From Bacteroidales bacterium (GTDB lineage Bacteria > Bacteroidota > Bacteroidia > Bacteroidales > F082), in contig JALVAQ010000103.1 of NCBI GenBank assembly GCA_027011095.1, positions 1 to 35,372 of the forward strand: DNA of 35,372 nt, read 5' to 3'. Positions 2,065 to 35,372 of this stretch are shown in pieces. The first letter of the stretch is position 1. Every line of letters starts with the position of its first letter. A model generated the notes under the pieces. The model saw only the letters and a program-made list of their open reading frames with translations, was not told the origin of the DNA and did no database searches. The position numbers were made by a program, and so were the translations under genes.

Positions 2065-4014
<1,950 letters not shown>

Positions 4015-5930: not shown

Positions 5931-6992
5931 TTAGAAATTCAGAATAATGCCGATGGTATGATTTCCGTTAAAGCTAACGGTTTCACGATAGGAATAATCG
6001 ATTGAAAAGTAGGATCCGGTTTCTTTGTTAATCGGCACCTGTACGGTTGCTCCAAGGCTTAACCCACTGGTGACATTACTCCTTTCGGCAGTTAACATGC
6101 TATCCCAAATACCTTTTTCATAGGTATATCCTCCACGAATCATTACCCAGTCTTTCATGCTAAACTCCATGCCTACTGCAAACTGGTCTTTTGTAAACGA
6201 GTTGGATATAAAGGTAAGTGCCGGGGTTAACCTCAACTCTTTTCCAAGCAAAAAATCGTAGGAGGTACCTATGGTTAACTGAGCAGGAATTTCAAAGGCA
6301 TCGGCACGATGTTCCAGAGTAAACTGGGTTTCCTGTCCCGGAATAAAGGCTTTTATTGACAAACCATCGCCGGAGAATTTCATGGTAGGCCCGATGTTTT
6401 TCAAAGCAACACCAAAGGCAAATTGGTCGTTTGCACCACTAACATATTGAATGCCAATATCAATGGCAACACCTACAGCCGTTACGTCGGAAACGCCTTC
6501 CGAAATAATTTTAAACACGGCACCTGCACTAATGCTGTTTGAAAACGATTTTGAATACGACAGAGCAAAGTTAATTAGGCTGGGGCTGTATGTTCCCAAT
6601 CCGCCATCAGGGTTATCGGTGGTTGTAACTTCGATATCGCCAAAATTCATCGACATTACCTGTAACCCAAACACACCGGACTCGCTGACACGCTGCGCCA
6701 GGCCGAAAGCAAAGATATTGGTTCCGGTACCTTTAAGCCATTGTGTGTGTGCAAAGTTAACCTGTGTTTTATGGGTAAAGGCTAATCCACCCACGTTTCC
6801 CCACATGGCCTCCAACCCGTGTACTCTGGCCATATTGGCTGAACCCCAACCGGAGCTGCGTGCCCAGGGGTTTATCAGTAACTCGGAGGCACCTGCCTGG
6901 CCGGAACGGTCTTTGTTTCCGGCCTGAAGAAACTGAGGTGTAAATACCACCCCAATTAATAATAGTGCTAAATATTTATAAAGAGTTTTCAT
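5931..6992 (-). CDS. PorV/PorQ family outer-membrane beta-barrel protein
   Basis: 353 aa with signal peptide; N-terminal GQAGASELLINPWARSSGWGSANMARVHGLEAMWGNVGGLAF resembles the start of PorV/PorQ-family barrels; C-terminal aromatic residue (IILNF). Confidence 0.8.
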   Translation of the reverse strand: MKTLYKYLALLLIGVVFTPQFLQAGNKDRSGQAGASELLINPWARSSGWGSANMARVHGLEAMWGNVGGLAFTHKTQVNFAHTQWLKGTGTNIFAFGLAQRVSESGVFGLQVMSMNFGDIEVTTTDNPDGGLGTYSPSLINFALSYSKSFSNSISAGAVFKIISEGVSDVTAVGVAIDIGIQYVSGANDQFAFGVALKNIGPTMKFSGDGLSIKAFIPGQETQFTLEHRADAFEIPAQLTIGTSYDFLLGKELRLTPALTFISNSFTKDQFAVGMEFSMKDWVMIRGGYTYEKGIWDSMLTAERSNVTSGLSLGATVQVPINKETGSYFSIDYSYRETVSFNGNHTIGIILNF

Positions 6993-10000: not shown

Positions 10001-11387
10001 CACCATAATACATTTTAGTACCATCTTTCCATATACCACGCAACAGATTATAATACTGAGGAGCAATTTCGGGGTCACTCTGTGCAGGGTTTCCCCCGTT
10101 ATTATGGTAAACAAAGCGTCGCATTCCGAAACGTTCGTCGTCAATAATGCCATTTCCAAAGTTTACACCGTTGATACTTTCATCGCAACGCTGAACGGTT
10201 GTCATATCACCGGTATTCGGGTCAACTACAGAATCATACTTAGGATTGTCAATTCCATCGGGATCCATATATGGCCCCTGGAAAAAGTCAACACCTATGG
10301 CAGGTGGTTGATCGCCATACGATTCCACTTCACCGTTACCGTCAACATCCTTTCCGTTGTAACAATATCCTAATCCTCTGCTAACATCACAACCCACAAA
10401 GTCATCACGGGCATATCCAAGGTCGGTATCCACCCATGGTGAAAAATAGGTGTTGGTTAATTCATAGGTAGAGCGGTTAATAATTTCATAACTGTAAAAG
10501 GTCATGTTATTAATCACATCGTTGGTAGCAAAGGCAAAGGCCTGTGCTCTGATTTCCATACCGATGGCAGAACCCTGCGTTTCAGTATGTGCATTCCCTT
10601 TATCGTTAAAAACCCACCATAAAGTTTGGTCACCTTTAATAACCTGGTCGGAAAGTACACTACCATGAATAACGCCTTCAAGTTCTTCATCTTTAGTAGG
10701 TGTTTTGGTGTGGCATAATGAGTTATCAATATCGTAATAGGGGTAGTCACCTTTAAAAGGATCGTACTCTCCATCTCCATCGTTATCGTAAAAGGGTGCT
10801 AAATAATAGCTTTGTCCTTTGGATGGATCGCCATGAGCAGGCCAGTTTAGGATAGATTCGGGGATGTGATATTTTTCGTCCGGAACAAAAACACCGGTTT
10901 CAGGGTCGGTATGCGACAGAAACTCATCAACATCGGCACGATAAATTTTAAAATGTTTATCGTATTGCGAGCAGGTTGCTGCATCAATAGCTGCTGTTCC
11001 GTCGATGGTTAAGGGGCCTGTCCAGTAATCGACTCCTACCTGACGATAACGCAAAGCAGCCAATTTAAGCTGGTTGTTAATGTCGAGGCCACCAATCCAT
11101 AAAGCACCCGAAAACATAGAGGTAGCAGTACCATTTTTAGGTATATAATATTTGGAGCCTGTACCACCGGGTAAGTCCCACCACATATCACCACCTGTGT
11201 TGATACGTGCTTTCACATTGTTAATGTCAAGCCACTCAAAACCGGCAGCAGGAGCACAACCTGCCGTGGTATTTTTTAAAACGCGCTTTACTTTAAGACT
11301 GTCGTATTGCACCTCTCTTCCATAGGTTGTGGAAGCCATAAGTGATGAAATGAAAACAATCAATAAAATATGAGTAATATTCTTCAT
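7035..11387 (-). CDS. Large secreted protein, putative T9SS-type surface protein with C-terminal sorting-like beta domain
   Basis: 1450 aa, signal peptide (MKNITHILLIVFISSLMASTTYG); C-terminal VVPNPYYAY...TITIYNVSGVKVRQL...LEWDLKNFAGVPISGGIYYIHVEAPEGEHVVKWF resembles T9SS/FlgD-Ig-like C-terminal domains. Confidence 0.7.
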   Translation of the reverse strand: MKNITHILLIVFISSLMASTTYGREVQYDSLKVKRVLKNTTAGCAPAAGFEWLDINNVKARINTGGDMWWDLPGGTGSKYYIPKNGTATSMFSGALWIGGLDINNQLKLAALRYRQVGVDYWTGPLTIDGTAAIDAATCSQYDKHFKIYRADVDEFLSHTDPETGVFVPDEKYHIPESILNWPAHGDPSKGQSYYLAPFYDNDGDGEYDPFKGDYPYYDIDNSLCHTKTPTKDEELEGVIHGSVLSDQVIKGDQTLWWVFNDKGNAHTETQGSAIGMEIRAQAFAFATNDVINNMTFYSYEIINRSTYELTNTYFSPWVDTDLGYARDDFVGCDVSRGLGYCYNGKDVDGNGEVESYGDQPPAIGVDFFQGPYMDPDGIDNPKYDSVVDPNTGDMTTVQRCDESINGVNFGNGIIDDERFGMRRFVYHNNGGNPAQSDPEIAPQYYNLLRGIWKDGTKMYYGGTAYITGQGTVGPECDFMFPGDSDPCNWGTGGQPPNGGFGQNGFYWTEQTGNNGSPNPPGDRRFMQSAGPFTLKPGAVNYITVGIPWARATSGGAWASVELLRVVDDKCQALFDNCFKVIDGPTAPDLSVSELDRKFVFYISNSRSSNNYQEGYAEYDQNIIQPYPLDPTKRSDSLYRFEGYQIFQLKNDQVTIESIHDPDLMRLVAQFDLKNGVTKLVNYNYDESIGGNVPVVEVKGGDNGISHSFEITQDAFASGDVRLVNNKVYYYTAIAYAYNNYMDYNEDPNVNKGLYGQKKPYLSGRKNIKLYSAMPHRTVNGTIIKGDYGTRPEITRIAGYGNGGMTLELSDETVEQILSKPPASETNIFGGPDYPMVYNPTYKTNAGPVNVKVINPLGVKEGNFELWLDSLERVKIYGVSDVVGLVGDTTSKMVAKWHIKDKATGTIYTADTTIIMNNEQLFNDLGLSVQMTQPYQPGPITVGKVSIDNNMKPVKVVLSDNNGLISSSVVYEDSSQMWLSGVEDEDVPGYVLNWIRSGTYQSQELSNDDDWGMQTKPPNPWDPTEAYEKIANGTWAPYALTTYGNNSLIGGGVVQSRIGPAFNSSSKIFSGLDDLASVDIVFTPDKSKWSRCPVIEMSFDSLLAEGHAVQFGLRASPSVDKDGNFATPGSGPSNNPDDPNYISDHGMGWFPGYVINVETGERLNIIFSEDSYLGAFNGRDMLFNPTAKDPDAVHQYNDNNIFSGEGFNRMPVLGGKHYVYIMKHNRSVFDQLGFYAEFNSPAYDAGKYAHTVLDTLITDPYNNFLTPNFYSQIMYVGMPMATKGKEWLSNQATVKIRIATPYRRGYTSAALDTVYPGMDANNQYPIYEFTTKGISTEYSNPEKLVTDLDEIRVVPNPYYAYSAYEHNALDTRVKITNLPKKCTITIYNVSGVKVRQLTKDDPVTALEWDLKNFAGVPISGGIYYIHVEAPEGEHVVKWFCSQRVPDLNTF

Positions 11388-11438: not shown

Positions 11439-14400
11439 TTAAAAGTTGAATGAAACGCCAAATCGAATCTGTCTCGGAGCACTATAGTTTCCGGGACGAT
11501 TAACATATATGCTGTATAATTCACGGTATGACTCGGGATCCAATTGGTTGTTAATTTCACGTTGCCATTCCGGTGCTGCAAGGTATCCGTCATCGTCGGC
11601 ATTGCCTGTGTAAGGATAAACGTTCATCACATTATGTGTATTGAGCACATTAAGTACGAGGAAGTAAACATTCATGTATGACTGATGGGTAGAGCCATCT
11701 TTCTTTTTACGTGCTTTAAAGTAAAAGTCTTTGTCAACACGCATATCAATTCTGAACTGCCATGGCAAGCGTGAACCTCCATAGGTACCACGAAGCAGGT
11801 GTACGCCGCCTGAAATGGGTGATGTAACATTTCGCGAAGCGGTGTAAGGAACACCTGAACCACCGCTCAGAGTCATGTTTACACCAAAATTGCTAAGAAG
11901 ATCAATGGGAGCTTTGCCTGACTTATCGCGATTAATGCGGGGGCCGTTGTATTTTTTACCATCGGCATAGCGAAAATCGAATACAATGTTAAACTGATGG
12001 CGTCTGTCCCAGGGCATTGGGAATGTGGAACGCAGGTTTGGTAATCCGGCAGCAATCAGCGAGGCAGCTGTTGTTGTGGATGAACCGGTAGCATCGGCAA
12101 ACTGAAGTGTATATGAGGCTCTCAGCTGGATGTTTCCGGTACGGCGTAAATCGTAGTCAACGGTTAATCCTTTTACGGTTCCAAAGTCGAGGTTATTATA
12201 AGAGGTATAATCTTTAGGGTAGGCTCCGTTAAAACGATACAACTGAATCATATTACGCATTTCACGATAAAAGGTTGAAAAGGTAATGGCTGATGTGTTG
12301 TTTAGTTTTTGAGTAAATCCCAATTCATAATCAATGGTTTTTTCAGGAGTAAGCGATGGGTTGTTGATTGCTCCGCTTATGGTGTTAAAATAGTAATAGG
12401 TGGCCGGTGTGGTATAAGTATTACTTGATGGCCGTTGTGTTAACACATCATAGTGGGCAAAAAACAGGGCTTCATCCGAAATAGGGAATGAAAATGAGAT
12501 ACGTGGCATAATGCTGACCTGAGGGTCGTAATCTTTAAATGAGTTGATATCAACCCTGTCTTGATTCTGATTCTGAAGCACTGGTGAAATTCCACTACCT
12601 ACATCCAGTATAGAAGGGTCTTGAATTTCAACTCCCTGAGCATTGTACCAAATATTTCCATTACGGTATCCTGTTACTCTGGTTGGGTTTTCAACTTTAT
12701 CGGCATAAACAACATAATCGCTTCCTATGTTACCGGGATGTGAGATTTGATTGCCACCAAGGTTATTTACCTCACTTGCTGTTTTGGCAGGGAATAATAA
12801 ATAGGGGTCTTTTAATACTTTTTGGTTGGCATCGAACCGGTCAACACGAACACCTATATTAAAGATAAGGTCTTTAATGGAGAATTTATCCTGAATATAG
12901 CCGGCCATATAAATTGGTTTGAAAGAGCCGATATTACGGGTGTACATGCCGTTTGCATCTTGTTTGCCAAAAAAGTCATCGTAAGTGGGTTGGTTTTTTA
13001 GTTTGTTTCCTTTATAGTCGAAACCATAATAACTAATGTATGAGTTACCGTCATTCCAAAGTTCATCGGGAGCAAACATGTCGATGTTAAAGAGGTCTTT
13101 ATCCAGTTGAACAGTGTGCTTATCGCCATTCTTATCAAAATACTCAATCGTCTGATTGTCGTAATCATAAGAGTCGATGGTGATAAAATCAAGGCCGTCA
13201 ACAGGAAGCCCGAGTTTTTCGCGCAGGTTTTTGTCAAAAGTACGTTGAGTAAGGGCATCGTATTTTCTATAATAGATAATGGTGTCAACTATACCATCGT
13301 GTTGTACTAAATATGGGTTGTCCTTATCCAGTTCCATAATGTGAAAGTTTGTAAGTTGACGCATCAGGTTCCACATGCCTGTGGTTGCCCAACTGATTCC
13401 CGAATTGGAACGTTGTTCGTATTGGAATCCCAGTTTAATATCGTGGTCGCCAAGATCCATCGAAGCATCCAATTTCAGGTTATACTGGTCGTTGTCGTAT
13501 CTGCCGTAGCCAACCTGGTTGGTACCCGGTGACTGATACAATCCATATACCGATCCCGGCCGGCTTCCGTTAAGTAAACCTCCACCAAGTAAAATGTTAT
13601 CGGTGTTATCGTAATGGCCTTCAGAATATCCGGCAAATGTATTGTAATAACTTGTGGTGTATTGTGCAACAAGCGGATTGTAATCTTCGGGTGTCCATGT
13701 AGTTAACGTATCGTAATCCCATTTGTTTAACAGCCATACATTATCGTAGGTAATGCCGTTAACTGTGTCGCTACCCAATTCATAGGTAGGGCTTTTATAA
13801 GTACTGAATTTTCCAAGATAGCCATATTTAAAAATGTCATCCCAATGGTTGGGGTCGCCATGTTCGCCGCGAACTTTGGTGTAGTCGGCCTGAATGGTGT
13901 ATAACACATTTTTTAACAACGATTTGCTATCGCTTGCCGAGGGGAAACGTTGGGTGAACCTGACGTAACCACGAATGGTTTCATCGTTGAAAACGCCATT
14001 TTTTTTGTAGTTTAATAATGAAGGGTCGGGACCATTAGAAGATCTGAATGCATTTCGGTGCGAACGGTTATAGGCACCGCCGAAAGTTAAGGTGATATTT
14101 TCGGTTGTACGTACGCTTATGTTACCAAGCAGGTTAATATTCCAATTGGTGGTGTTTTTTGAATAATTTAATTTTTGCAGGTCGTCATTCCGTAAAAAGT
14201 TACCATTAATAAAGGTACCGGAACCAGAACCGGCAGGCCTTAACGGATTTTGTTCGAGGTTAGCCAGCACATCATCTTTGGCATAATAATGTCCAACAGC
14301 TGATAGCGCCCCGTCTTTACGGTAGTATCCATCGCCGGCAATGAAAAAACCGAGCAGTGCGGTACCATTTTTATCTTTTCCTTTAATTAACGGCCCCATA

Positions 14401-15161
14401 ACATTGAATCCCAGACGGTTGTAACCGAAAGCATCGAGAAATTGAGAGGTTTCCATTTCGAGTCCTGCACCAAATTTACGCGAAGCACCCTTGGTAGTAA
14501 CATTAATAACTCCCGATGTGGCATCGCCATACTGAGCTGGTGTACCACCGAGGATTACGTCAACTTGTTCGATGGCCGATTGCGGAACGGAGGAGTTACC
14601 AATTACTCTGATACCATCAATGTACATGGCTGTTGCGTTTGAACGGGCACCCCGGACACTACCGCGCTCACCATCTTTTGAAAACACACCTCCCACTGTG
14701 GTTGCAACTGCGTTGGCACTACGGTTAGGCATTTTTGAAATCTCTTCGGAAGTTACCGAAGCACCGCTGGAAGTTTCATCCTTTGAAATAAGTGGAACCG
14801 TGTAGTCCACAATTTCAACTTCATCAAGGGTTTCCGAAGTTGGTGTCATTACGATGTCGTAAAACCGGGTTTTATCGGCCGAAATGGCCATGCCGTTTAC
14901 AATAACTGTTTTGTAGCCGATGTAGGTGGCTTTTAAACTGTATTTTCCCGGAGGGATGGGTTTAATCTGATAGTTACCATCAAAATCGGAGGTGGCACCT
15001 CCAATCATTGTTCCGTTGTTTTCCAACACGATATTTGCAAAAGGAACGGGTTCTTTGGTAGTTTTATCAATAACTTTTCCTTTTAGAGCACCTTGCTGAG
15101 CAAACAACATAATGCCACCGGAAAGAATCAAACCAAATGTAAGGAGTAATTTTCTAATCAT
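11439..15161 (-). CDS. TonB-dependent receptor with N-terminal carboxypeptidase-regulatory-like domain and plug
   Basis: 1240 aa; signal peptide, ALKGKVIDKTTKEPVPFANIVLENNGTMIGGATSDFDGNYQIKPIPPGKYSLKATYIGYK, plug ATAMYIDGIRVIGNSSVPQSAIEQVDVILGGTPAQYGDATSGVINVTTK; terminal Phe (RFGVSFNF). Confidence 0.93.
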   Translation of the reverse strand: MIRKLLLTFGLILSGGIMLFAQQGALKGKVIDKTTKEPVPFANIVLENNGTMIGGATSDFDGNYQIKPIPPGKYSLKATYIGYKTVIVNGMAISADKTRFYDIVMTPTSETLDEVEIVDYTVPLISKDETSSGASVTSEEISKMPNRSANAVATTVGGVFSKDGERGSVRGARSNATAMYIDGIRVIGNSSVPQSAIEQVDVILGGTPAQYGDATSGVINVTTKGASRKFGAGLEMETSQFLDAFGYNRLGFNVMGPLIKGKDKNGTALLGFFIAGDGYYRKDGALSAVGHYYAKDDVLANLEQNPLRPAGSGSGTFINGNFLRNDDLQKLNYSKNTTNWNINLLGNISVRTTENITLTFGGAYNRSHRNAFRSSNGPDPSLLNYKKNGVFNDETIRGYVRFTQRFPSASDSKSLLKNVLYTIQADYTKVRGEHGDPNHWDDIFKYGYLGKFSTYKSPTYELGSDTVNGITYDNVWLLNKWDYDTLTTWTPEDYNPLVAQYTTSYYNTFAGYSEGHYDNTDNILLGGGLLNGSRPGSVYGLYQSPGTNQVGYGRYDNDQYNLKLDASMDLGDHDIKLGFQYEQRSNSGISWATTGMWNLMRQLTNFHIMELDKDNPYLVQHDGIVDTIIYYRKYDALTQRTFDKNLREKLGLPVDGLDFITIDSYDYDNQTIEYFDKNGDKHTVQLDKDLFNIDMFAPDELWNDGNSYISYYGFDYKGNKLKNQPTYDDFFGKQDANGMYTRNIGSFKPIYMAGYIQDKFSIKDLIFNIGVRVDRFDANQKVLKDPYLLFPAKTASEVNNLGGNQISHPGNIGSDYVVYADKVENPTRVTGYRNGNIWYNAQGVEIQDPSILDVGSGISPVLQNQNQDRVDINSFKDYDPQVSIMPRISFSFPISDEALFFAHYDVLTQRPSSNTYTTPATYYYFNTISGAINNPSLTPEKTIDYELGFTQKLNNTSAITFSTFYREMRNMIQLYRFNGAYPKDYTSYNNLDFGTVKGLTVDYDLRRTGNIQLRASYTLQFADATGSSTTTAASLIAAGLPNLRSTFPMPWDRRHQFNIVFDFRYADGKKYNGPRINRDKSGKAPIDLLSNFGVNMTLSGGSGVPYTASRNVTSPISGGVHLLRGTYGGSRLPWQFRIDMRVDKDFYFKARKKKDGSTHQSYMNVYFLVLNVLNTHNVMNVYPYTGNADDDGYLAAPEWQREINNQLDPESYRELYSIYVNRPGNYSAPRQIRFGVSFNF

Positions 15162-22050: not shown

Positions 22051-22893
22051 TTAATATTCCCAAAGAAACTGTTCAAAATTAAACATTTCGTCTTTAATTC
22101 GTTTTGATTCGAGCAGAGCATCAACGCCGGTAGCGTACTGCGAAATACGGCGGTCGAATACGTTTTGTTCTTTGTAAATATAGCTATCGAAAAGCCTTTT
22201 GATAAATACCTGATCGAACGAAAGGCGCATGGCTGAGTTAGCGCCATTGAACACATACGAGTTGGCCAGAACGGGACGGGCTTCGGCATAGGAGAACCAA
22301 AATAACGGCTCGGTACCTTCTTCGCCGTTACGTTCTTTAATAATTACCGGACACATATCGAGGATACGAACCATCATTTGTGAACGTTGTTTATCAAAAT
22401 ACCAGTCTTCTTTAATACGCAGGCGCATTATTTTGGTTGGGTCGAAGGTGGTATAAATAACCGTATCGTACTCATCGTAAGGAGGGTAAGGCCTCCTCAT
22501 GGTTGTGTAAGAAGTGTCGATTTGGCGTCCAACAATTTCGTTGTAGGTAATCGGAATCAGCAGTTCATCGGTATTGTTGATATCGTAGGCAGTAATTTCG
22601 CCCTCTTTAACGGCATCCAAAATGGTAACCGTAAACGATTTCCAGTTTTGCTGGGTTTCGATTGGATAATATAGCTTTTGGTTAAATTTTTGCCTGAAGT
22701 CGATTTCGCGCCATATTCTTTTTGACCACATTACATCTGCCTTTCTAACGGTTGGCAACGGTGCAGGTTTTATATTTTCACCATCATTGTTAGCATACAC
22801 CTGGTCGAGGGGTTGGTTATCCACAATCTGGGCAAAAATGCCGCCCCCAAAAAGCAGGGTGAATGTAACAAATGCAACAAAAAACTTTTTCAT
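22051..22893 (-). CDS. porN: T9SS component PorN/GldN
   Basis: 280 aa; signal peptide; DVMWSKRIWREIDFRQKFNQKLYYP...ITAYD typical of GldN; downstream of gldKLM. Confidence 0.95.
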   Translation of the reverse strand: MKKFFVAFVTFTLLFGGGIFAQIVDNQPLDQVYANNDGENIKPAPLPTVRKADVMWSKRIWREIDFRQKFNQKLYYPIETQQNWKSFTVTILDAVKEGEITAYDINNTDELLIPITYNEIVGRQIDTSYTTMRRPYPPYDEYDTVIYTTFDPTKIMRLRIKEDWYFDKQRSQMMVRILDMCPVIIKERNGEEGTEPLFWFSYAEARPVLANSYVFNGANSAMRLSFDQVFIKRLFDSYIYKEQNVFDRRISQYATGVDALLESKRIKDEMFNFEQFLWEY

Positions 22894-22910
22894 ATCTTAT
22901 AAATAATTAA

Positions 22911-24587
22911 TTATTTCAATTCGAGGTTGACAGGGTTCAGGCTACGCTTGGATCCGTCAGGCCCTTTTGCTTGTATGTTCTCAAAGAAGAATTTCTGTTT
23001 TCTTTTTCCGCTTCTGATGCGTTTAATAATATCTTTTGAAAAGGTATTACCCTTGGCTTTAATGGTAAAAAAGTCGCCATTAATAAGGGTTGTAAACGAA
23101 TAGGAAGTAATACGGAAATAGAAGAGGTCAAATTCAAATCCTTTCATTTCGGGGATAATAGCTCCGGCTGCAAGCAGCTGGTTTTTGTCGATAGCACCGC
23201 CTGTCATACCCGCAATGGTAGCGGTTGGGTTGGGAACACGTTTAACCCTAAAGTCAACTGCACCAAGATTATAAGGTTTTCCATCAATTTTAGCAGAAGC
23301 TGAAACGGTAACGTTTTTCATACCTTTACTAACTTCAACAATCCACTGACCTTTGTTTTTGGGATCCTTATAAAGTTTACCTTTCGAAATGGAAGGTGTT
23401 ACCTTATCCATTGACAAGCCCGGTACTGAAATAGAAACGGGGTTTTTAACACCAATATAAAACACATTCATTTTTAAAGGAGATACCGTAAGCGATGGTG
23501 GAGCTACCACATAACTACCATTAAATTCGTATTGTGTAGGTTTGTTGGTTTTTGGGTCAATCATTTCAATAACACCTGCATATTTTTTTATACCCTCGCT
23601 GGTTGCCGGAAATTCCAATTTAACAGTTCCTTCGGTACCGGTAACTTTTTTAGCACGTTTTTTATAATCCGGTTTCCACTTATCAACGCCGGTTACATAA
23701 TAAACATCAGGTTTGGTTTTTGTGTCGTAGGCTGCAACCAATACTTCGGCTTCGTACTTTTTGTTTTTAAGAACATAGGTACTTTTGGGAATAATTTTAG
23801 CTTCAACATGGTCGAATTTATAGTCGGTGGCCGAAACAGAAGCATACAGATAATTTGCAGCATCAAATTCAGCAGATTGTACTTCGTTAATAATTTTATT
23901 TATTAACGTAATATCGGCAGCAAGAATGGTGTGGTTAAAATTATGATACTCCCAGTCCTCTTTGGTTCCGGAGGCATCGTGGTAAACTTTTCCGGGTTTA
24001 ATGACAAGTCCTATTTTTTTAGAGTTTTCAGGCTCATTCATTTTTTGCAACATAAAGCTACGATACTCTTTTAACTTTTGGCTAAGTTTATACGCTTCGC
24101 CATTATTTTTGTTGCCAATCATATAGTGCGTAGTGTTGTCGTATTTGTCTTTTGTAGGTACTTTGTCAAGCAGCAGGTATTTTTGTTGAACGCCGTTTAT
24201 AACAGTGTCTTTGTAATATAATTCTCTGATTTTAAGCGAATCCTCTTTGGTGTTTTTCGGCAACACACCCATTTCGGAGGCTTTTACCAAATTAAACTTC
24301 AAATCCTCGAGGTAGTTTAAAAGCTTTTCGCTTTCCTCTTTTACCTGAACAGCTTCCTGGTACTTGGGGCCGACTTTATCTTTGTTTAATTGGTATTGGA
24401 CTTTAAATTTATCATAAATATAATCCACTTTGTTTTCCAGGCTTGCATTGGTAGTTTGCATGCTTTCGTTCACAACAAGAAATGCATTTAGCACGTCCTT
24501 TGATACATTTAATGCCAGTAAAGCATAAAGTACCAAATACATCATGGAAATCATTTTTTGCCGTGGGGTTTCTTTATATCCAGCCAT
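22911..24587 (-). CDS. porM: T9SS inner-membrane component PorM/GldM
   Basis: 558 aa; N-terminal MAGYKETPRQKMISMMYLVLYALLALNVSKDVLNAF signature of GldM. Confidence 0.97.
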   Translation of the reverse strand: MAGYKETPRQKMISMMYLVLYALLALNVSKDVLNAFLVVNESMQTTNASLENKVDYIYDKFKVQYQLNKDKVGPKYQEAVQVKEESEKLLNYLEDLKFNLVKASEMGVLPKNTKEDSLKIRELYYKDTVINGVQQKYLLLDKVPTKDKYDNTTHYMIGNKNNGEAYKLSQKLKEYRSFMLQKMNEPENSKKIGLVIKPGKVYHDASGTKEDWEYHNFNHTILAADITLINKIINEVQSAEFDAANYLYASVSATDYKFDHVEAKIIPKSTYVLKNKKYEAEVLVAAYDTKTKPDVYYVTGVDKWKPDYKKRAKKVTGTEGTVKLEFPATSEGIKKYAGVIEMIDPKTNKPTQYEFNGSYVVAPPSLTVSPLKMNVFYIGVKNPVSISVPGLSMDKVTPSISKGKLYKDPKNKGQWIVEVSKGMKNVTVSASAKIDGKPYNLGAVDFRVKRVPNPTATIAGMTGGAIDKNQLLAAGAIIPEMKGFEFDLFYFRITSYSFTTLINGDFFTIKAKGNTFSKDIIKRIRSGKRKQKFFFENIQAKGPDGSKRSLNPVNLELK

Positions 24588-24633
24588 TTTTTAATTTTTT
24601 ATTTAAAACAATTAAATACCTTAGTTAATAATA

Positions 24634-25329
24634 CTAGTCATTAACATTCATGGCTGAAAGCATATTGCCATAAACCTTGTTAAGGTTACGCATGCGTTTA
24701 TTAAGTTCTTGTACCTGATTGGAAAATTCAACGGTGGAGCTATTCGACTCGTCAAAAGTTTTTATTAATTCGTTTGCATTTTCGGCAACTTTGGCAACGC
24801 TTTCGGAGTAGCTTGTAGCGGCCGATAAATCCTGGGTCATAACTTCATTCAGTTTATTAGCGGTTTCGGATGCACCTTTTAAGCTTGTTGCAAATTCTTT
24901 GGTGGCAAAAACAGCTTCATTGGCCTGTCCTATTTGATTGGCGGTTTCGGAGAGTTTGCTTAAGCCTTCACCTAACCTTCCCAGCACCTCATCGTTGACA
25001 TTATTTTTTTCAAACATTTCATCCAGTCGTTGAGTGGGTGTTTTTCTTTGCTCCAAAACATTATCATTCACATCATCGCGATACATTCCGGCAAGTTCGG
25101 GATAAACGAGACTCCAGTCGGGTTCAACATGAGGTGGTTCAAATGCTGAAAGGAAAAAGATAACAGCTTCAGTAAGCAAACCTACCGTTAACATTTCGTT
25201 GGCACCGGGTAGGTGGATGATTTTAAAGAGTGCTCCTACCAATACGATGGACGCACCAAAACCATATACTTTAGCCATTATGTTTCTATAAATTCTTGTG
25301 TGTGTGAAATCCATTAAGCCCATGATCAA
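24634..25329 (-). CDS. porL: T9SS inner-membrane component PorL/GldL
   Basis: 231 aa; two TM helices (KVYGFGASIVLVGALFKIIHLPGANEMLTVGLLTEAVIFFLSAFEPP) typical of GldL. Start possibly at the internal Met (MGLMDF). Confidence 0.96.
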   Translation of the reverse strand: MIMGLMDFTHTRIYRNIMAKVYGFGASIVLVGALFKIIHLPGANEMLTVGLLTEAVIFFLSAFEPPHVEPDWSLVYPELAGMYRDDVNDNVLEQRKTPTQRLDEMFEKNNVNDEVLGRLGEGLSKLSETANQIGQANEAVFATKEFATSLKGASETANKLNEVMTQDLSAATSYSESVAKVAENANELIKTFDESNSSTVEFSNQVQELNKRMRNLNKVYGNMLSAMNVND

Positions 25330-25377
25330 ATAATTTTATTGATTTTGTTATAAATTTAATTCAAATAATTGTTCTTA

Positions 25378-26757
25378 TTAATGATAAACCCGTGAAGCTT
25401 TGCTTGGGTTGTCGCCTTTGTTTCGTCCAAGGTATGGCTGAATACATCTGAACCCTATGTAGGCCTTGGCTGTATCCTGATATTCATAGGCACGGGTAGT
25501 GACCTGTAAATAATATTTAATATCTTTCCACGAACCACCACGAATTACTTTACGTTTCATGGCTGGCGGATCGTCCTCTTTTGCATTATAGGTGTAGTTG
25601 GGGTTCATATCCCATGTAAAGTTGTAAGAGGACGGGTCGTAAGCCGAGTTTGTCCATTCGGCCACGTTTCCGGCCATATCGTACAAGCCCCAGTCGTTGG
25701 CAGGATAGTGTGCTACAATAACTGTACGTAATCCGCCATCGGCAATGTAATTTCCTCTGCGGGGTTTAAAGTTTGCCAAAAAGCATCCTTTTTCGTTAAG
25801 GGTATAAGGCCCGCCCCAGGGATAGGGATTAAGCTGGTACCCCCCTCTGGCAGCCCATTCCCATTCGGCTTCGGAGGGAAGACGGAATTCTGAAAGTTCC
25901 ACATTGCCTTTTTTATGTTTAATATGTGAATTAAGCAGTTGTGTTCTCCAAACGCAAAATGCCCGTGCCTGACGCCAGTTTACACCTACTACAGGGTAAT
26001 TGTCGTAAGCGGGATGCCAAAAATATTTTTCGGTCATGGGGTCGTTAAACGAATAGGTATAATCAGCAATCCATGCCAATGTATCAGGATAAACGCCAAT
26101 CATTTCGTTACGAACATAAACCGATCGGTCGCGAAGTCCCTGCGGACGGTTTGCCAGTCCGGCATTACGATAGTCGCCGGGTTCTGAAAAATCCTTTTTA
26201 GCAGCAGCGTGTAGGTCAACCCATTGATATGTGTACATTAATTTACGGGTGTCAATTTCGCGGCGGCGGAAAAATCTTTCGTTTTCGGGGAGGTACATCT
26301 CTTCGAGTGCATCTCTTACATCCTGGTCTTCGCTATCCCAGTTGATGTCTGTTTTCCAGTTTAGGTAAGGGGGGTCGTAAACTTCGCCGGTTTTTTCATT
26401 TTCTTCAATCAGAAAATCTTCGGGGTCAACATTTCCCAAAAGAGTTCTGGCGATTGAGTCGCGAACCCAGTTAACGAACTGGCGATATTCATTATTTGTA
26501 ATTTCTGTTTCATCCATAAAAAAGCCTGAAACTGAAATTGTTTTCGGTTCTGCCAAATAACTTTTTGCAATGTCTTCATCACCGGCACCCATTACAAAGC
26601 TTCCCTGTGGAACGAAAACCATCCCGTAAGGGTCGGCCTGATAGAATGGTTTTGATGAAGTTCGTGCTCCAACTAATTCTCCATTACCTGAGTTATTACA
26701 ACTTGCCAATAACCCGGCAACGAGAATGTAAAAAATCAACCTTTTCATACTTAACAA
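25378..26757 (-). CDS. porK: T9SS outer-membrane lipoprotein PorK/GldK (FGE-sulfatase fold)
   Basis: 459 aa; lipobox LLASCNNSG, FVPQGSFVMGAGDED, EVEWAARGGY-like EAEWEWAARGGY, VIRGGSWKD, IGFRCI. Likely start at MKRL (26748). Confidence 0.96.
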   Translation of the reverse strand: MLSMKRLIFYILVAGLLASCNNSGNGELVGARTSSKPFYQADPYGMVFVPQGSFVMGAGDEDIAKSYLAEPKTISVSGFFMDETEITNNEYRQFVNWVRDSIARTLLGNVDPEDFLIEENEKTGEVYDPPYLNWKTDINWDSEDQDVRDALEEMYLPENERFFRRREIDTRKLMYTYQWVDLHAAAKKDFSEPGDYRNAGLANRPQGLRDRSVYVRNEMIGVYPDTLAWIADYTYSFNDPMTEKYFWHPAYDNYPVVGVNWRQARAFCVWRTQLLNSHIKHKKGNVELSEFRLPSEAEWEWAARGGYQLNPYPWGGPYTLNEKGCFLANFKPRRGNYIADGGLRTVIVAHYPANDWGLYDMAGNVAEWTNSAYDPSSYNFTWDMNPNYTYNAKEDDPPAMKRKVIRGGSWKDIKYYLQVTTRAYEYQDTAKAYIGFRCIQPYLGRNKGDNPSKASRVYH

Positions 26758-26854
26758 TTTGATTTTATGTGTCTTACCTTATTTTCCTTTTTTAACGAGC
26801 ACCAAAAATAAGAAAATCTGCAATGTAACTTAGTTTTGGGCTTAATATTTTCAA

Positions 26855-27808
26855 TTACAAATACCGAGTGTTTTTATAACTGGTTTTTGAATGGTCACCT
26901 TTTATTTTAAAACAGTAGCTTAATCCTATTTCGTGAGACCCTGGCATACCGTATCTCATGGTATTGATATCATAGGAATAGCTAATATTGAAATCTCTGA
27001 ACTTAACGCCAACCATAACGCCCACCGACTCTAAAAACCGATAGCTGACACCGGCGTAAAATCTGTCTTTGTACCTAACGTTGGTTGAAATAATATATTG
27101 CGTGGAGGCTAAATTACTCTCAATCATAAATCCAGGATCAATTTCATAGTCTTGGTTGGTAAGAAATATCCGGTACATTCCGGTAAGAAACAGGGTGCGG
27201 TCGGTTTTGTAACGAACCACCTGATTATCGGAGGTACTTAAATTTTTTCCGTGCGATTCGAGCAGGTTAATTACTGATAACCCCACGTAGTAATCTTCGG
27301 TTTTAACAAATATGCCCAGGTTGCCGTCAAAAATCATCGCTCCCTGTTCGGAGGACAACAAAATTGGGTCTCCCGATTGTTCCGGTTTTAATTTTGAGAA
27401 ATCAATGCTGTGGTTCATCAAACTAACTCCTGCGCCAATGCCCACATCGGCAAACGAAAGTGAAGCATGAAACGAATAAGAAAGGTTAATGCCTACTGAT
27501 TTTTCGAAGCCCAGTTTGTCCTGAATAATTGAACCGCCAAGCCCTCCGTGTAAAACTTTCATGGGTGAGTTAATGGTAACAAGGTAGGTTTCGGGAGCAA
27601 CTTTATTGCCTTCATCGTCGGTAAAACCGGCCCAGTGTTGACGCAAAAGTCCGTTTACACATACGCCATCACCCATTCCTGCAAATCCGGGATTAATGTA
27701 GGTTAAGGTATTATTATATTGCGTAAAAGTTGAAAGCCTCTGCCCGTAAGCAGTTGCCGAAACAACAATTAGAAAAATAATACTGTTGTAAAACTTTTTA
27801 AAACTCAA
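26855..27808 (-). CDS. porP: PorP/SprF family T9SS outer-membrane protein
   Basis: 317 aa; signal peptide, FTQYNNTLTYINPGFAGMGDGVCVNGLLRQHWAGF typical of PorP/SprF; first gene of the por cluster. Confidence 0.95.
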   Translation of the reverse strand: MSFKKFYNSIIFLIVVSATAYGQRLSTFTQYNNTLTYINPGFAGMGDGVCVNGLLRQHWAGFTDDEGNKVAPETYLVTINSPMKVLHGGLGGSIIQDKLGFEKSVGINLSYSFHASLSFADVGIGAGVSLMNHSIDFSKLKPEQSGDPILLSSEQGAMIFDGNLGIFVKTEDYYVGLSVINLLESHGKNLSTSDNQVVRYKTDRTLFLTGMYRIFLTNQDYEIDPGFMIESNLASTQYIISTNVRYKDRFYAGVSYRFLESVGVMVGVKFRDFNISYSYDINTMRYGMPGSHEIGLSYCFKIKGDHSKTSYKNTRYL

Positions 27809-28630: not shown

Positions 28631-28704
28631 GGGGGATTAGCTCAGTTGGCTAGAGCGTTTGACTGGCAGTCAAGAGGTCATCGGTTCGATTCCGATATTC
28701 TCCA
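28631..28704 (+). tRNA. tRNA-Ala, anticodon GGC
   Basis: 74 nt cloverleaf GGGGGAT..ATTCTCC-A, anticodon loop CTGGCAG (GGC), T-loop TTCGATT; acceptor G3-U70 wobble pair, the alanine identity element. CCA not encoded. Confidence 0.97.
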
Positions 28705-28713
28705 CGTAAAGAG

Positions 28714-29247: not shown

Positions 29248-32200
29248 ATGAAAAAAGTTTACCTCAAAAGTTTGTTGTTTGCATTAACAGTAATGGCCGG
29301 CCTCACCCTTTTTGGTCAAAACAGTAAAAGTGGTGCACCGCAAAAGGCGGCAGCATCCAAAAACAATTTCTATTCCATCGAAAAATCGTTTAACGATAAG
29401 TGGTCTTCTTACAACATTGACAGGAATGGTTACTACATTGATGAGAATGGTGAAGAAAAAAGAGTTCCCGGCTACAAACAATTTAAACGTTGGGAGTGGT
29501 ACTGGGAGACCCGTGTTGATAAAACCACCGGTGACTTCCCCCGAATCAGGAAGTCTGATGTTTTTATGGAACGTGCAAACAACGGTAATCCTTCACGGAG
29601 CACTTCCGGCAGTTGGACATCATTGGGGCCTTCGAGCAGTGCAGGAGGTTATTACGGCTTGGGAAGGTTAAACTGCATCGGTTTCAGAAGCGGTGACAAC
29701 AACACCTATTACGTAGGCTCCCCTTCGGGAGGATTGTGGAAAACAACCGATGACGGTGCTTCATGGACTGCCCTCACCGATGACAATCCTGTTTTGGGTG
29801 TCAGCGATGTGGTGGTACTGGCAGGAAGTACAACTTCAAATGATACCCTTTACATTGGTACCGGTGACCGTGATGGTGGCTCATTGTGGAGTATGGGAGG
29901 TGGACAAACCGGCGACAACAATAGTATTGGGGTGCTTAAGTCAGTTGATGGTGGAGCCACCTGGAATACAACAGGGCTGTCGTTTCAGGCTTCGGAAGGC
30001 GTGTTGGTAAACCGGTTGATTGTTAATCCCGACAACCATAACATATTATATGCGGCAACAACCAACGGACTTTATAAAACTACCGATGGTGGTAACAACT
30101 GGACACAACTATCCAACACCGACTTTTACGACCTTGAATTTAAACCCGGCAACCCTCAAACCATGTATGCCGGTGGCAACACAAGCGGCAGCATCTATTT
30201 ATCAACCGATGGAGGTGCTACATGGTCGGAAGTGCTGACAACAAACGGGTATCGTGTTGTGGTTGGCGTAAGCCCCAACCAAAGTACATGGGCTTATGCG
30301 GCTATTGTTGACTCTTATGGTTCATTAACAGGTTTTTATAAATCGGAAACTTCGGGAAGCTCCTGGTTTTTGCCCGGCGACTTTGTTAATTTAATGGGTG
30401 CTAACTGCGATGGTTCAGGTAGTTATCAGGGGTGGTACGATTTGGCGCTTGGTGTTGACCCCACCAACGCCGCTATTGTTTTTGTGGGTGGAATCAATAC
30501 CTGGAAAACCTCTGATGGTGGTGTAAACTGGCATCTTAACAACTACTGGCATGGAACCTGTGGCGGGTCGGCACCCGAAGTACATGCCGATAAACATTGC
30601 CTTAAATTTCAAAATGAAACAGCAACACTTTTTGAATGTAACGACGGCGGCGTATATAAAACCACCGATGGCGGTATAAACTGGAATAACAAAGGAAACG
30701 GAATTGTGTCGGGCCAAATTTATCGACTGGCCGTTTCGCAAACGGTGCAGGGTGATGTTATTGCAGGATTACAGGATAATGGAACAAAATCCATTAATTC
30801 AGGAACCTGGGAAGATGTTTTGGGTGGTGATGGTATGGATTGTGATATTGACTATACCGACAATAATCTGCAATATGGCGAAAGTCAAAATGGTTATTTA
30901 ATAAAAACCACAAACCACTGGACAACTTCTACTGATATGGGATTTATTGATGGCCGCTGGATAAGTCCTTTTGCCATCGACCCCACAACCCATACTACCC
31001 TCTATTTTGGTGCTACCAGAAGTGATAGATTTGATCCAAGGCTTCACAAATCAACCGATGGCGGGAGTACATGGAGTGCTATCGGTGACTATAATTTCCG
31101 TGAATTTGCCGTGGCTCCTTCAAACTCCGATTATATTTACGGAGTGGATAATAAGGGGTTCTTAGAAGATGTTGCCGGTGTTTATAAAACCGACAACGGT
31201 GGGTCATCCTGGTCTGATATTACAGGAACCCTGCCTGTAAACAGTGCTACACCAACTTATGTAGCCGTTAAATACGACGATCCGAATACGGTATGGGTAA
31301 CATTCGGACAATACAACAACTACTCGGTTTACCAAACAACCGACGGAGGCACTTCGTGGATGGATATCTCTTACGGATTGCCGTCAGTACCTGTAATGTG
31401 CATTGTTCAAAATCGTCAAAATACCTCTGAAACAGAGTTGTATGTGGGAACCGATGTGGGCGTTTATGTAAAATACGGAACCGCACCCTGGCAACTTTTC
31501 AGCACCGGATTGCCCAATGTTGTGGTTACCGAGCTTAAAATATATTACGATGATGCCACTCCGGCAAACAGCCGCATCAGAGCGGCAACTTACGGAAGAG
31601 GTGTGTGGGAATCCGATTTATATACCTTTACGGCTGCGGCTCCCATAGCCGACTTTATTGCAGATGATACGGTTCCCATACCCAATCAAACCGTCAGCTT
31701 TAACGACTTTTCTTCCAATCAGCCTACTTCCTGGCAATGGACTATCACACCTTCGTCTTATCAATACGTTGATGGTACAAGTGCCACTTCGCAGTACCCC
31801 AAGGTGCAATTTATGGCATTGGGTTATTACACCATTCAGTTAACGGCATCCAATGCATTGGGCAACGATACCAAAACAAGAACCTCTTACATTAACGTCG
31901 GGACGTATCACAACTATTGCAGTGCTTCCGGTGGCGGCAGCGATTATATTGAGAGTGTCGAAACGGGAGACATCAGCAATACCAACACATCTTCCGATGG
32001 GTACCACGATTACAAATCACTTTCCACCGCTTTATATCAGGGGCAGGCCGAAATACCCATTACTATTTCCAACGGGTTGGCAAACAGCACCTACGATGTT
32101 TCTGTATGGATAGATTTTAATCGTGACGGAACTTTTGATGAGTTAGCTGAAAAAATTGTGTGCGAATCAAATACTTCAACAAGCCCGGACATTTACTATT

Positions 32201-35200
32201 TTGATGTTCCTGTTGATGCCGATACCGGTATTACCGTTATGCGGGTACGTATTAAACGATTATATTCCGATTGCGGTTCACCCTGTGGAACCACAACCTA
32301 TGGCGAAGTGGAAGATTATTCGATTCAACTGAACGAAATGCCAGCCTGTCCTCCTCCCTCCTATCAAACCGAAAGTAACCTTACGGGAACATCCGTTGAT
32401 TTGGGCTGGTCGCAAATTGGTTCGGTATCCTCGTGGGATATCCGGCTTGTAACAGCAGGAACCGACACTTCGGGAATAGCGTTCAGCACAACATCATCCA
32501 ACCCGCTAACGGTAGATACCTTAACCGGAAACACGGATTACGAATGGTATGTAAGATCTGCTTGTGGCAGTGCATGGATTGGCCCGTCATCATTCCATAC
32601 CTCCTGTACATCGCTCACGGCACCGGTTTCCGAAAATTTTGACGGGGTTTCCACTCCCGACCTGCCCAATTGCTGGACAAAGATTGTAAACACAACTTCG
32701 GGTTACTCCTATGTTAGAACAAGCACATACAATCCCAACTCTTCACCCAACTCGGTTATCTTTTATAATAGTGATGATACAACAGGTACATTTCTTCTGA
32801 TAGCTCCTCAATTAACCGATTTGCCAACGCAGCAAAATATGATTACTTTTTATGCTAAAGGAGCCGATGGCGGAGAAGCATTTATTGTGGGAACCATGAC
32901 CGACCCGTCAGACGAATCAACCTTTACACCATACAAAACCATAACCCTGACCGATACTTACATTCAATACAAGGTTTATTTCGGGTCGGGATATACTTTA
33001 AACGATACCTACATAGCTTTTAAACACGGCATGAACGACCGGTATCTGAATATCTATTTTGATGATTTTGTATATACTGCCATGCCCGTATGCCCCGAAC
33101 CGTCAGACCTTGCTGCCGATAGCATTTCCGATACCGCAGCAAAACTTTCGTGGACGGAAAACGGTACGGCAACCTCATGGCAATTAAGAATTGTTACCTC
33201 AGGAACCGACACTACGGGATTAAGTTACAGTACAGTAACTGCCAATCCGCTTTGGATAGACACCCTTTTGGCGAACACTTCTTATGATTGGTATGTGCGG
33301 GGTGATTGCGCTGGTGAATGGTCGGCCAATGCAACCTTTTCCACCATGTGCAGCAGCCGTACCGCTCCGTTTTCCGAAAACTTTGACGGGGTAACTGCAC
33401 CCGATTTACCCGATTGTTGGAGCAGTATAGTTTATTCTAACTACACGCAGGCTGCAGTGAAAACCTACACTTATTCTTATCCCCATTCAAGTCCAAACCA
33501 TATTTTGATGAATGACGATGGCGGAGCCAACGGTGCACTTTTGTTAATCACGCCTGAACTAAGCGATTTGACCTCACACTTGAATCAAATCAGATTTTAC
33601 GCAAAATGTTACGATGAAGGGGAATATTTGATTGTGGGAACTATGACTGATGCTTCGGACACAGCTACTTTCACCGCTTTTAAAACCATTCAACTAACAA
33701 CCGATTATACCGAATACACAGTAATGTTTGGAAACTCTTACAGTGAAAGTGACAGTTATATCGCATTTAAGCATGGTGAGAATGGAGACGGATTTTATAA
33801 CAATATCTTTATTGACGATTTTGTGTACGAACCCATGCCCACCTGTCCGCCGGTTTCCGATTTGAAAGAGAGTAATATAACAACTACCTCGGCAACACTC
33901 TCCTGGACACAAAACGGTTCGGAAACAAGCTGGGATGTGAGAATCGTTACCAAAGACAGCGACACTACAGGTACGCCTTATGCTACCAAAACATCCAATA
34001 TGATTATTGTGGACACCTTGTCGGCCAATACTTATTACGATTGGTACGTACGTTCCGGCTGTGGCAGCGACTGGGCAAAAAGTACTTTTGTTACCGATTG
34101 CGGAACCTACAGCGCACCCTACAGCATGAATTTTGATAACGAAACCGTACCCGACATCCCCCATTGCTGGTCAACCATAGTCAGTTCATCCAGTTCTTAT
34201 GCCAAGATTGAAACACTCACTTCACAGTTTCCGAATTCAACTCCCAACCATGTGGTAATGGATGAATACAATGACGACAATGCAACACTTTTGCTTATCT
34301 CTCCGCAGTTTACCGACCTCACAACGCAGCAAAGGCAAATTACCTTTTTTGCAAAAGCCAATAACGACGGCGACAGTTTATTGATCGGAACCATGTCGGA
34401 CCCGGCAGTTGCTTCCACCTTTACACGCTTCAAAAAAATATCACTCACCACCACTTACACTCAATATACGGTAATGTTCGGAGCAACCTATACGCTAAAC
34501 GATGAGTACATAGCCTTTAAACACGGAGGCGGAGGTAATTACGAAAAGATTTATCTTGATGATTTTAATTACACTTACATGCCTGTGAACCCGCCTCCAT
34601 CCGATTTGTATGAAGCCGGTATTACCCAAACATCGGCACAGTTGGGATGGACTGAAAACGGTACGGCAACCTCATGGGATGTGCGCATTGTAATTGAAAA
34701 TGCCGATACTGCCGGCGTGGCCTATGCAACCACATCCAACAACCCTTTTACGGTAGATACTTTAAATCCAAATACTTATTACGACTGGTATGTGCGTGAA
34801 CAAGGTAGTGAAAACTGGGCCGGCCCGTCAACTTTTGTAACTGATTGTGGTGCTTACACGGCAACCTATTCTGAAAACTTTGATAACGTTACCGCTCCTG
34901 CCATTCCGCATTGTTTTAGTACCATTGTAAACTCAACTTCAGCTAACGCTGTTGTTAAAACTGATACTTATGGAGAACATTCCTATCCAAACCAAGTGAA
35001 TATGTCTAATGCCTACGATGCCAATGCAACACTTATGCTTATTTCCCCGCAGTTCAGCGATTTAACCTCGCAACAAAATGAGGTTCGTTTTTACGGCAAA
35101 GGCTACTCCGGGGTAAAGGTTATTTTGGGCACCATTGATAATCCGGCTAATGCTTCCGGTTTTACAGCCATTGATACCATTGAACTTACAAGTACATACA

Positions 35201-35372
35201 CGGAATACACCCGATATTTCGGAGCCGGCTATACCGGTACGGATGAATATATTGCATTTAAACTCGGTACAGGTTCCAGCTCTAAAACTGCTTATATCGA
35301 TGATTTTGTGTACGAACCCATGCCGGCTTGTCCGCACCCCACCAACCAGTCGGAAAGCAATATAACAACCAC
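29248..35372 (+). CDS. Giant secreted multidomain protein, putative T9SS cargo/adhesin; incomplete at right edge
   Basis: Continuous open frame of at least 2041 codons from ATG at 29248 to the window end (spot-checked in frame at 31621, 32281, 33061, 33841, 34021, 35341). MKKVYLKSLLFALTVMAGLTLFGQ signal peptide; repeated Asp-boxes (TTDDGASW, SVDGGATW, TTDGGNNW, STDGGATW, TSDGGVNW, TTDGGINW, STDGGSTW, TDNGGSSW, TTDGGTSW); PKD-like ADFIADDTVPIPNQTVSFNDFSSNQPTSWQWTI; GEVED domain ending TTYGEVEDYSIQL; then tandem FnIII/adhesin modules. Confidence 0.93.
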   Translation, partial: MKKVYLKSLLFALTVMAGLTLFGQNSKSGAPQKAAASKNNFYSIEKSFNDKWSSYNIDRNGYYIDENGEEKRVPGYKQFKRWEWYWETRVDKTTGDFPRIRKSDVFMERANNGNPSRSTSGSWTSLGPSSSAGGYYGLGRLNCIGFRSGDNNTYYVGSPSGGLWKTTDDGASWTALTDDNPVLGVSDVVVLAGSTTSNDTLYIGTGDRDGGSLWSMGGGQTGDNNSIGVLKSVDGGATWNTTGLSFQASEGVLVNRLIVNPDNHNILYAATTNGLYKTTDGGNNWTQLSNTDFYDLEFKPGNPQTMYAGGNTSGSIYLSTDGGATWSEVLTTNGYRVVVGVSPNQSTWAYAAIVDSYGSLTGFYKSETSGSSWFLPGDFVNLMGANCDGSGSYQGWYDLALGVDPTNAAIVFVGGINTWKTSDGGVNWHLNNYWHGTCGGSAPEVHADKHCLKFQNETATLFECNDGGVYKTTDGGINWNNKGNGIVSGQIYRLAVSQTVQGDVIAGLQDNGTKSINSGTWEDVLGGDGMDCDIDYTDNNLQYGESQNGYLIKTTNHWTTSTDMGFIDGRWISPFAIDPTTHTTLYFGATRSDRFDPRLHKSTDGGSTWSAIGDYNFREFAVAPSNSDYIYGVDNKGFLEDVAGVYKTDNGGSSWSDITGTLPVNSATPTYVAVKYDDPNTVWVTFGQYNNYSVYQTTDGGTSWMDISYGLPSVPVMCIVQNRQNTSETELYVGTDVGVYVKYGTAPWQLFSTGLPNVVVTELKIYYDDATPANSRIRAATYGRGVWESDLYTFTAAAPIADFIADDTVPIPNQTVSFNDFSSNQPTSWQWTITPSSYQYVDGTSATSQYPKVQFMALGYYTIQLTASNALGNDTKTRTSYINVGTYHNYCSASGGGSDYIESVETGDISNTNTSSDGYHDYKSLSTALYQGQAEIPITISNGLANSTYDVSVWIDFNRDGTFDELAEKIVCESNTSTSPDIYYFDVPVDADTGITVMRVRIKRLYSDCGSPCGTTTYGEVEDYSIQLNEMPACPPPSYQTESNLTGTSVDLGWSQIGSVSSWDIRLVTAGTDTSGIAFSTTSSNPLTVDTLTGNTDYEWYVRSACGSAWIGPSSFHTSCTSLTAPVSENFDGVSTPDLPNCWTKIVNTTSGYSYVRTSTYNPNSSPNSVIFYNSDDTTGTFLLIAPQLTDLPTQQNMITFYAKGADGGEAFIVGTMTDPSDESTFTPYKTITLTDTYIQYKVYFGSGYTLNDTYIAFKHGMNDRYLNIYFDDFVYTAMPVCPEPSDLAADSISDTAAKLSWTENGTATSWQLRIVTSGTDTTGLSYSTVTANPLWIDTLLANTSYDWYVRGDCAGEWSANATFSTMCSSRTAPFSENFDGVTAPDLPDCWSSIVYSNYTQAAVKTYTYSYPHSSPNHILMNDDGGANGALLLITPELSDLTSHLNQIRFYAKCYDEGEYLIVGTMTDASDTATFTAFKTIQLTTDYTEYTVMFGNSYSESDSYIAFKHGENGDGFYNNIFIDDFVYEPMPTCPPVSDLKESNITTTSATLSWTQNGSETSWDVRIVTKDSDTTGTPYATKTSNMIIVDTLSANTYYDWYVRSGCGSDWAKSTFVTDCGTYSAPYSMNFDNETVPDIPHCWSTIVSSSSSYAKIETLTSQFPNSTPNHVVMDEYNDDNATLLLISPQFTDLTTQQRQITFFAKANNDGDSLLIGTMSDPAVASTFTRFKKISLTTTYTQYTVMFGATYTLNDEYIAFKHGGGGNYEKIYLDDFNYTYMPVNPPPSDLYEAGITQTSAQLGWTENGTATSWDVRIVIENADTAGVAYATTSNNPFTVDTLNPNTYYDWYVREQGSENWAGPSTFVTDCGAYTATYSENFDNVTAPAIPHCFSTIVNSTSANAVVKTDTYGEHSYPNQVNMSNAYDANATLMLISPQFSDLTSQQNEVRFYGKGYSGVKVILGTIDNPANASGFTAIDTIELTSTYTEYTRYFGAGYTGTDEYIAFKLGTGSSSKTAYIDDFVYEPMPACPHPTNQSESNITT
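32347..35372 (+). repeat. Tandem ~744-nt FnIII + adhesin/jelly-roll modules (4 complete, fifth beginning)
   Basis: Modules at 32347-33090 (744 nt), 33091-33843 (753), 33844-34587 (744), 34588-35328 (741), fifth from 35329. Each follows PSDL...TSAxLxWxxNGxxTSWDVRIV...YDWYVR...SENFDxVxxPDxPxCW...LLLISPQxxDLTxxQ...IVGTMTDxxDxxTFTxFKTIxLT...YIAFKHG...IYIDDFVYxPMP. Confidence 0.93.

Follow-up and report, generated by a model that had tools for sequence, protein, structure and literature searches.

What is encoded at the right-hand end of this contig, where an open reading frame runs off the edge, and how would its product reach the cell surface? The window, i.e. the whole stretch of DNA analysed (35,372 nucleotides), is the entire contig C103 (JALVAQ010000103.1) of an uncultured Bacteroidales bacterium, whose genome is in 527 contigs. 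The product is probably a surface adhesin of 3,031 residues exported by the type IX secretion system (T9SS). That it is a T9SS adhesin of known kind is a well-founded reading, and its one unusual feature is an apparent exchange of the middle part. What had been an edge fragment is now a complete giant adhesin, tied to RemA and to GH74-like heads with an altered active-site hairpin.

Reading frame and contig join

From the ATG at 29248 the frame comprises 2,041 codons (29248–35370, forward strand) and has no stop before the window ends, as a sequence-only reading of this DNA had reported. The giant surface-protein ORF within the window (29248–35372) holds codons 1–2041 of 3031, about the first two thirds of the protein. 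An in-frame stop lies at most four codons upstream of the ATG (the stop-to-stop frame is 2,045 aa), and thus the start is closely constrained. The ORF is missing from the ORF track supplied with the sequence because that listing requires a stop codon and none is present within the window, which is the reason that had been suspected; when the ends are treated as closed, no ORF listed within 29248–35372 exceeds 156 aa.

Comparison of contig ends across the genome shows that the window ends in 127 bases (35246–35372) that recur exactly at the start of contig C186, the sole matching contig. The overlap looks like a k=127 assembler residue at an unresolved branch. Extension to the right until a stop codon had been recommended; when this is done, the frame continues onto C186 (128–3095), ends with a stop at 3096–3098, and gives a joined protein of 3,031 residues without internal stops. 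The C-terminus, which had been placed beyond the window, is located here. A homologue in another Bacteroidales MAG (JALVZH010000230.1, termed L079) is one unbroken ORF that matches residues 1–3031 in a single alignment with 83.3% identity, and this confirms the join.

Domain organization

The protein starts with a signal peptide of about 24 residues (MKKVYLKSLLFALTVMAGLTLFGQ; 29248–29319), which has no lipobox Cys. Plain reading of residues 1–24 bears out its earlier identification. A GH74-like tandem beta-propeller (residues ~111–790; 29578–31617), defined by profile search, AlphaFold model and Foldseek, is followed by a PKD domain (residues 797–884; 31636–31899) and a GEVED domain (residues 951–1027; 32098–32328). 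The matches to PKD, GEVED and fn3 all exceed Pfam cut-offs, and the first two of these domains had been named correctly from the sequence.

A series of modules, each consisting of an fn3 domain and an unnamed jelly-roll, is delimited by Pfam and by repeat comparison. Four are complete in the window: module 1 (residues 1032–1279; 32341–33084), module 2 (1280–1530; 33085–33837), module 3 (1531–1778; 33838–34581) and module 4 (1779–2025; 34582–35322), all, like the domains before them, on the forward strand. Module 5 (residues 2026–2275) begins at 35323–35372, and its remainder in the joined protein is on C186. These five modules are 247–251 residues each and have a mutual identity of 49–60%. They are followed on C186 by a sixth, more divergent module (32–35% identity), a domain termed NW (~2537–2609), a RemA-like region of ~330 residues and a sorting domain (2941–3031). 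The repeats had been read as adhesin modules, with fn3 and cleaved adhesin among the models proposed for a check. The fn3 part stands, as found by Pfam, but Pfam Cleaved_Adhesin has no match in the giant protein. A Pfam search with single modules gave no named jelly-roll family, and the last module has a weak MAM match.

Each module is 83–95% identical to its own L079 counterpart and at most ~61% identical to the others. For module 5, mostly on C186, the respective figures are 94% and no more than ~61%. Since L079 has the same module order and number, repeat collapse is unlikely. Relatives of ~1,560 aa (L081, L087, L054–L056) have the propeller, PKD and GEVED domains, with ~51% identity in this head, and the RemA-like end, and are without the fn3/jelly-roll array. 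The giant size is thus due to the array, which doubles the length.

The propeller head

The propeller contains eight strict Asp-boxes (S/T-x-D-x-G-x-x-W/F) and one Asn variant, and with the variant included the total reaches the lower limit of the nine or more that had been counted. Composition shuffles (2,000) gave a mean of 0.09 Asp-boxes and a maximum of 2. A propeller profile made from 24 homologues has the GH74 xyloglucanases as top match (E=4.7e-26). When the AlphaFold model of the propeller (pLDDT 83, pTM 0.78) is used in Foldseek, the 25 best matches are all GH74 (E=1e-29 to 6e-23; best TM 0.68 by target length), and PorZ of Porphyromonas gingivalis (PDB 5m11) is at rank 35 (E=1e-17). 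The domain had been described as a BNR/sortilin-like propeller. Both the model and the Asp-boxes uphold the propeller, but the closest structures are GH74-type tandem propellers; sortilin and SorCS2 are far below GH74 in the profile search and in Foldseek, and a sortilin/VPS10-type receptor was rejected on these grounds.

The GH74 xyloglucanases (PDB 6p2o, 2cn3, 6mgj) share with the giant protein a tandem beta-propeller with Asp-boxes, but they differ at the active site. Their first catalytic Asp can be recognized because the chains of 2cn2 and 2cn3 differ there (D/A) and 6mgl carries D60A, and we take it to be D70 of 2cn3 in published numbering and D60 of 6mgl. By alignment, the corresponding hairpin of the giant protein is VGSPSGG (residues 156–162; 29713–29733, forward strand), which reads Ser-Pro-Ser with Pro at the position of the Asp. 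Among 23 homologues this position is Pro in 20, Ala in two, Val in one and Asp in none. The giant protein is probably not a xyloglucanase, and an active GH74 enzyme was rejected because of the replacement in all homologues. D510, in the motif QDNGT, is a possible counterpart of the second GH74 catalytic Asp.

Other residues are strongly conserved. An invariant Asp/His set consists of D207, H446, D448, H450, D466, D510 and D528, with D209 nearly invariant; part of it is an invariant HADKH (residues 446–450; 30583–30597, forward strand). An alignment of 24 homologues with identities down to 29% shows full or almost full conservation of D207, H446, D448, H450, D466, Q509, D510, D528 and C532. These residues are candidates for a site of binding, of metal coordination or of catalysis.

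This conservation bears on the alternative that survives best, namely that the protein is a T9SS-secreted enzyme whose propeller hydrolyses or lyses a polysaccharide at an active site other than that of GH74, with the fn3/jelly-roll modules keeping the enzyme on its substrate. Such an enzyme is unlikely, although the GH74-like fold found by both profile search and Foldseek speaks for it, as does the location of several of the conserved residues in hairpins like those that bear the GH74 catalytic Asp. However, the same residues could be structural or metal-binding, the first catalytic Asp is lost throughout the homologues, and no glycoside-hydrolase Pfam domain matches in the giant ORF. The F510_1955 family glycosylhydrolase model NF045728 resembles the propeller to the extent of a match of 120.9 bits, which is below the cut-off of 175, and differs in that the family spans just 246 positions.

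C-terminal region and sorting domain

RemA is a gliding lectin, and RemA and RemZ of Flavobacterium johnsoniae are T9SS type A cargo. A profile of the C-terminal part of the giant protein matches RemA (E=4.4e-42) and RemZ (E=8.4e-30), with alignments that span the NW domain, the linker and the sorting domain. A single-sequence PDB search with the C-terminal 747 aa found nothing, and detection of RemA needs the profile. Like these two, the giant protein would be a large surface protein exported by the T9SS; unlike them, it has a propeller, PKD, GEVED and fn3/jelly-roll array, which are unmatched in RemA and RemZ. Both of the Flavobacterium proteins have been observed as cargo in the translocon, where a conserved Lys of RemZ contacts PorV (PMC10994853). 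This Lys, near the C-terminus, is kept in the giant protein as K3027.

The sorting domain itself is divergent. It scores 20.4 bits with TIGR04183, for which the cut-off is 23, PF18962 is insignificant (E=0.22), and the YPNP start that is usual for type A domains is absent. On the other hand, a profile of 26 type A ends from the same genome matches the C-terminus with E=1.6e-7 vs 0.0036 for the best of 500 shuffles, and no internal segment of the giant protein is among the best scores listed. The C-terminal 228 residues have homologues at 11 further places in the genome, and at the corresponding position several of these score above the TIGR04183 cut-off. The TIGR04183 search had been proposed beforehand, with a C-terminus lacking a T9SS signal to count against a cargo role. 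What is present on C186 appears to be a divergent type A-like domain: the own-genome profile, the paralogues and RemA/RemZ all give homology, but the score stays below that needed for formal TIGR04183 membership. Curated sorting-domain cut-offs can thus overlook probable cargo. It should be pointed out that the model of the C-terminal part has a pTM of only 0.50, and its Foldseek neighbours are generic fn3/jelly-roll proteins with low TM.

T9SS genes and gene neighbourhood

A T9SS core operon on the complementary strand (22051–27808), from PorP/SprF to GldN, is divergent from the giant gene. It comprises genes for PorP/SprF (26855–27808), a GldK-like protein (25378–26757), GldL (24634–25329), GldM (22911–24587) and GldN (22051–22893), and PorW is also encoded in the window. 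The genome encodes PorV (484.8 bits), PorU (up to 1,331.6 bits, with three strong places) and SprA_N (550.8 bits). Two tandem full-length PorU-like sortase genes are found right before porV (contig C277, 2615–9709), with a third copy on C347. For SprA_N, a single 2,146-aa frame on contig C28 has two matches and the end of C36 has one, so the sprA gene could be divided between contigs or occur in two copies.

The giant protein had been considered a good candidate T9SS cargo on account of the por genes upstream. A cargo role is supported by the C-terminal homology, but the adjacency is weak evidence and was set aside: the gene is divergent from the operon, at least 150 type A sorting ends are scattered through the genome, and the linkage, which is conserved in a same-genus homologue termed L080 (with LigT, PorP, GldK, GldL and GldM), is absent from L079.

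An RNA family search shows a tRNA-Ala (GGC) between the operon and the giant gene (28631–28705, forward strand); the gap of ~540 bases from this tRNA to the giant gene start codon has no Rfam family. Three further genes on the complementary strand encode large or T9SS-related products. A protein of 1,450 residues (7035–11387) is without a Pfam match and has a weak PorZ-type/TIGR04183 end, its gene is adjoined by one for a PorV/PorQ-family protein (5931–6992), and a large TonB-dependent receptor with a carboxypeptidase-regulatory N-terminus is encoded at 11439–15161.

Proposed export and function

The export route proposed here follows established T9SS biology (PMC10202324, PMC12618676). The signal peptide would take the giant protein via Sec, and the SprA/PorV translocon would recognize the C-terminal type A-like domain. 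The chain would then pass the outer membrane, with the PorU sortase probably trimming it, and would be anchored or released as is other type A cargo. The NW domain and RemA-like region could form a base at the cell surface and the five or six fn3/jelly-roll modules a stalk, whereby the GH74-like tandem propeller, PKD and GEVED domains would constitute an outward head with a polysaccharide or a glycoprotein as ligand. We infer secretion, anchoring, adhesion and ligand alike, the binding role from the types of domains present.

A head-stalk-anchor layout with a GEVED domain is also a property of CshA-type fibrillar adhesins (PMC10952558). These have another head, and a Gram-positive wall anchor in place of the T9SS end of the giant protein. 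PorZ of P. gingivalis also combines a double propeller with a T9SS sorting domain, but it is a member of the T9SS attachment complex and is without PKD, GEVED and an fn3 array.

The head domains of binding type, the residue set strictly conserved in the propeller and a base homologous to the gliding lectin RemA all argue against a structural surface-layer or biofilm-matrix protein that has no specific ligand. Such a role is improbable, even though the large size and the beta-rich repeats would suit it and S-layer proteins are also exported by the T9SS (PMC10202324). An assembly artefact, where repeats would have led to a wrong join of C103 and C186 or a wrong protein length, gains some plausibility from the position of the contig end within the repeat array (the break probably stems from strain or repeat-number variation), but the exact overlap with a single partner contig and the same modules, module by module and in one frame, in L079 make it scarcely credible.

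Possible exchange of the middle part

Similarity between the giant gene and L079 is very uneven. Identity per 150 residues is 85–97% from residue 111 to 2360, but drops to 53–58% at 2536–2940 and to 40% in the sorting domain. The dS values follow the same pattern: 1.49 for the N-terminal residues 25–110, 0.54 for 111–790, 0.34 for 791–1031, 0.32 for 1032–2275, 0.50 for 2276–2372, and, towards the C-end, 0.81 for 2373–2535 and 2.0 (saturated) for 2536–3031. The low dS of the centre is not accounted for by selection at the protein level. Fourfold sites differ between the centre and the C-end with p=1.5e-14, a figure that is only indicative as codons were taken as independent.

The organisms themselves are more distant. 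RecG of this genome has 69% amino acid identity to that of L079's bin, with a saturated dS of 2.17, and 89% identity to that of L080's bin. From RecG, L079 appears to belong to another genus. Nevertheless, in the centre of the giant gene the L079 copy is far closer than RecG is, and closer than the same-genus L080 copy, which has 61–83% amino acid identity per segment compared and 19–58% at fourfold sites.

These comparisons favour, by a modest degree, the view that the exposed part (residues ~111–2372) moves between genera by recombination, while the C-terminal sorting ends, and perhaps the leaders, differ between the copies and stay in place; the N-terminal breakpoint is weakly supported (p=0.08). 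L079 may be misbinned or chimeric. The GC content of its flanks is 34–38% and that of the giant gene 45.6%, and the aldolase gene that adjoins the giant gene on L079 is lacking from this genome and from that of L080. The dS contrast within the gene holds even if L079 is misbinned. A cargo swap, if true, would represent a testable route for Bacteroidota to alter surface binding without touching the export signal.

Positions of the NW domain

The NW domain, of 75 residues (W-x-G...W...NW), occurs at two fixed distances before a stop codon. Seven copies in this genome are 491–503 residues before the stop and are followed by the RemA-like end; in seven copies the distance is 69–74 residues, and the protein ends there with no sorting domain. 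The loci concerned are L163, L164, L166, L167 and L174–L176 in this genome, as well as L049, L059, L081, L087, L161 and L162. No NCBIfam family matches the domain. In its terminal position it may serve as an alternative C-terminal signal or just be the last domain of the protein, and this form is rare among loci sampled from the wider order.
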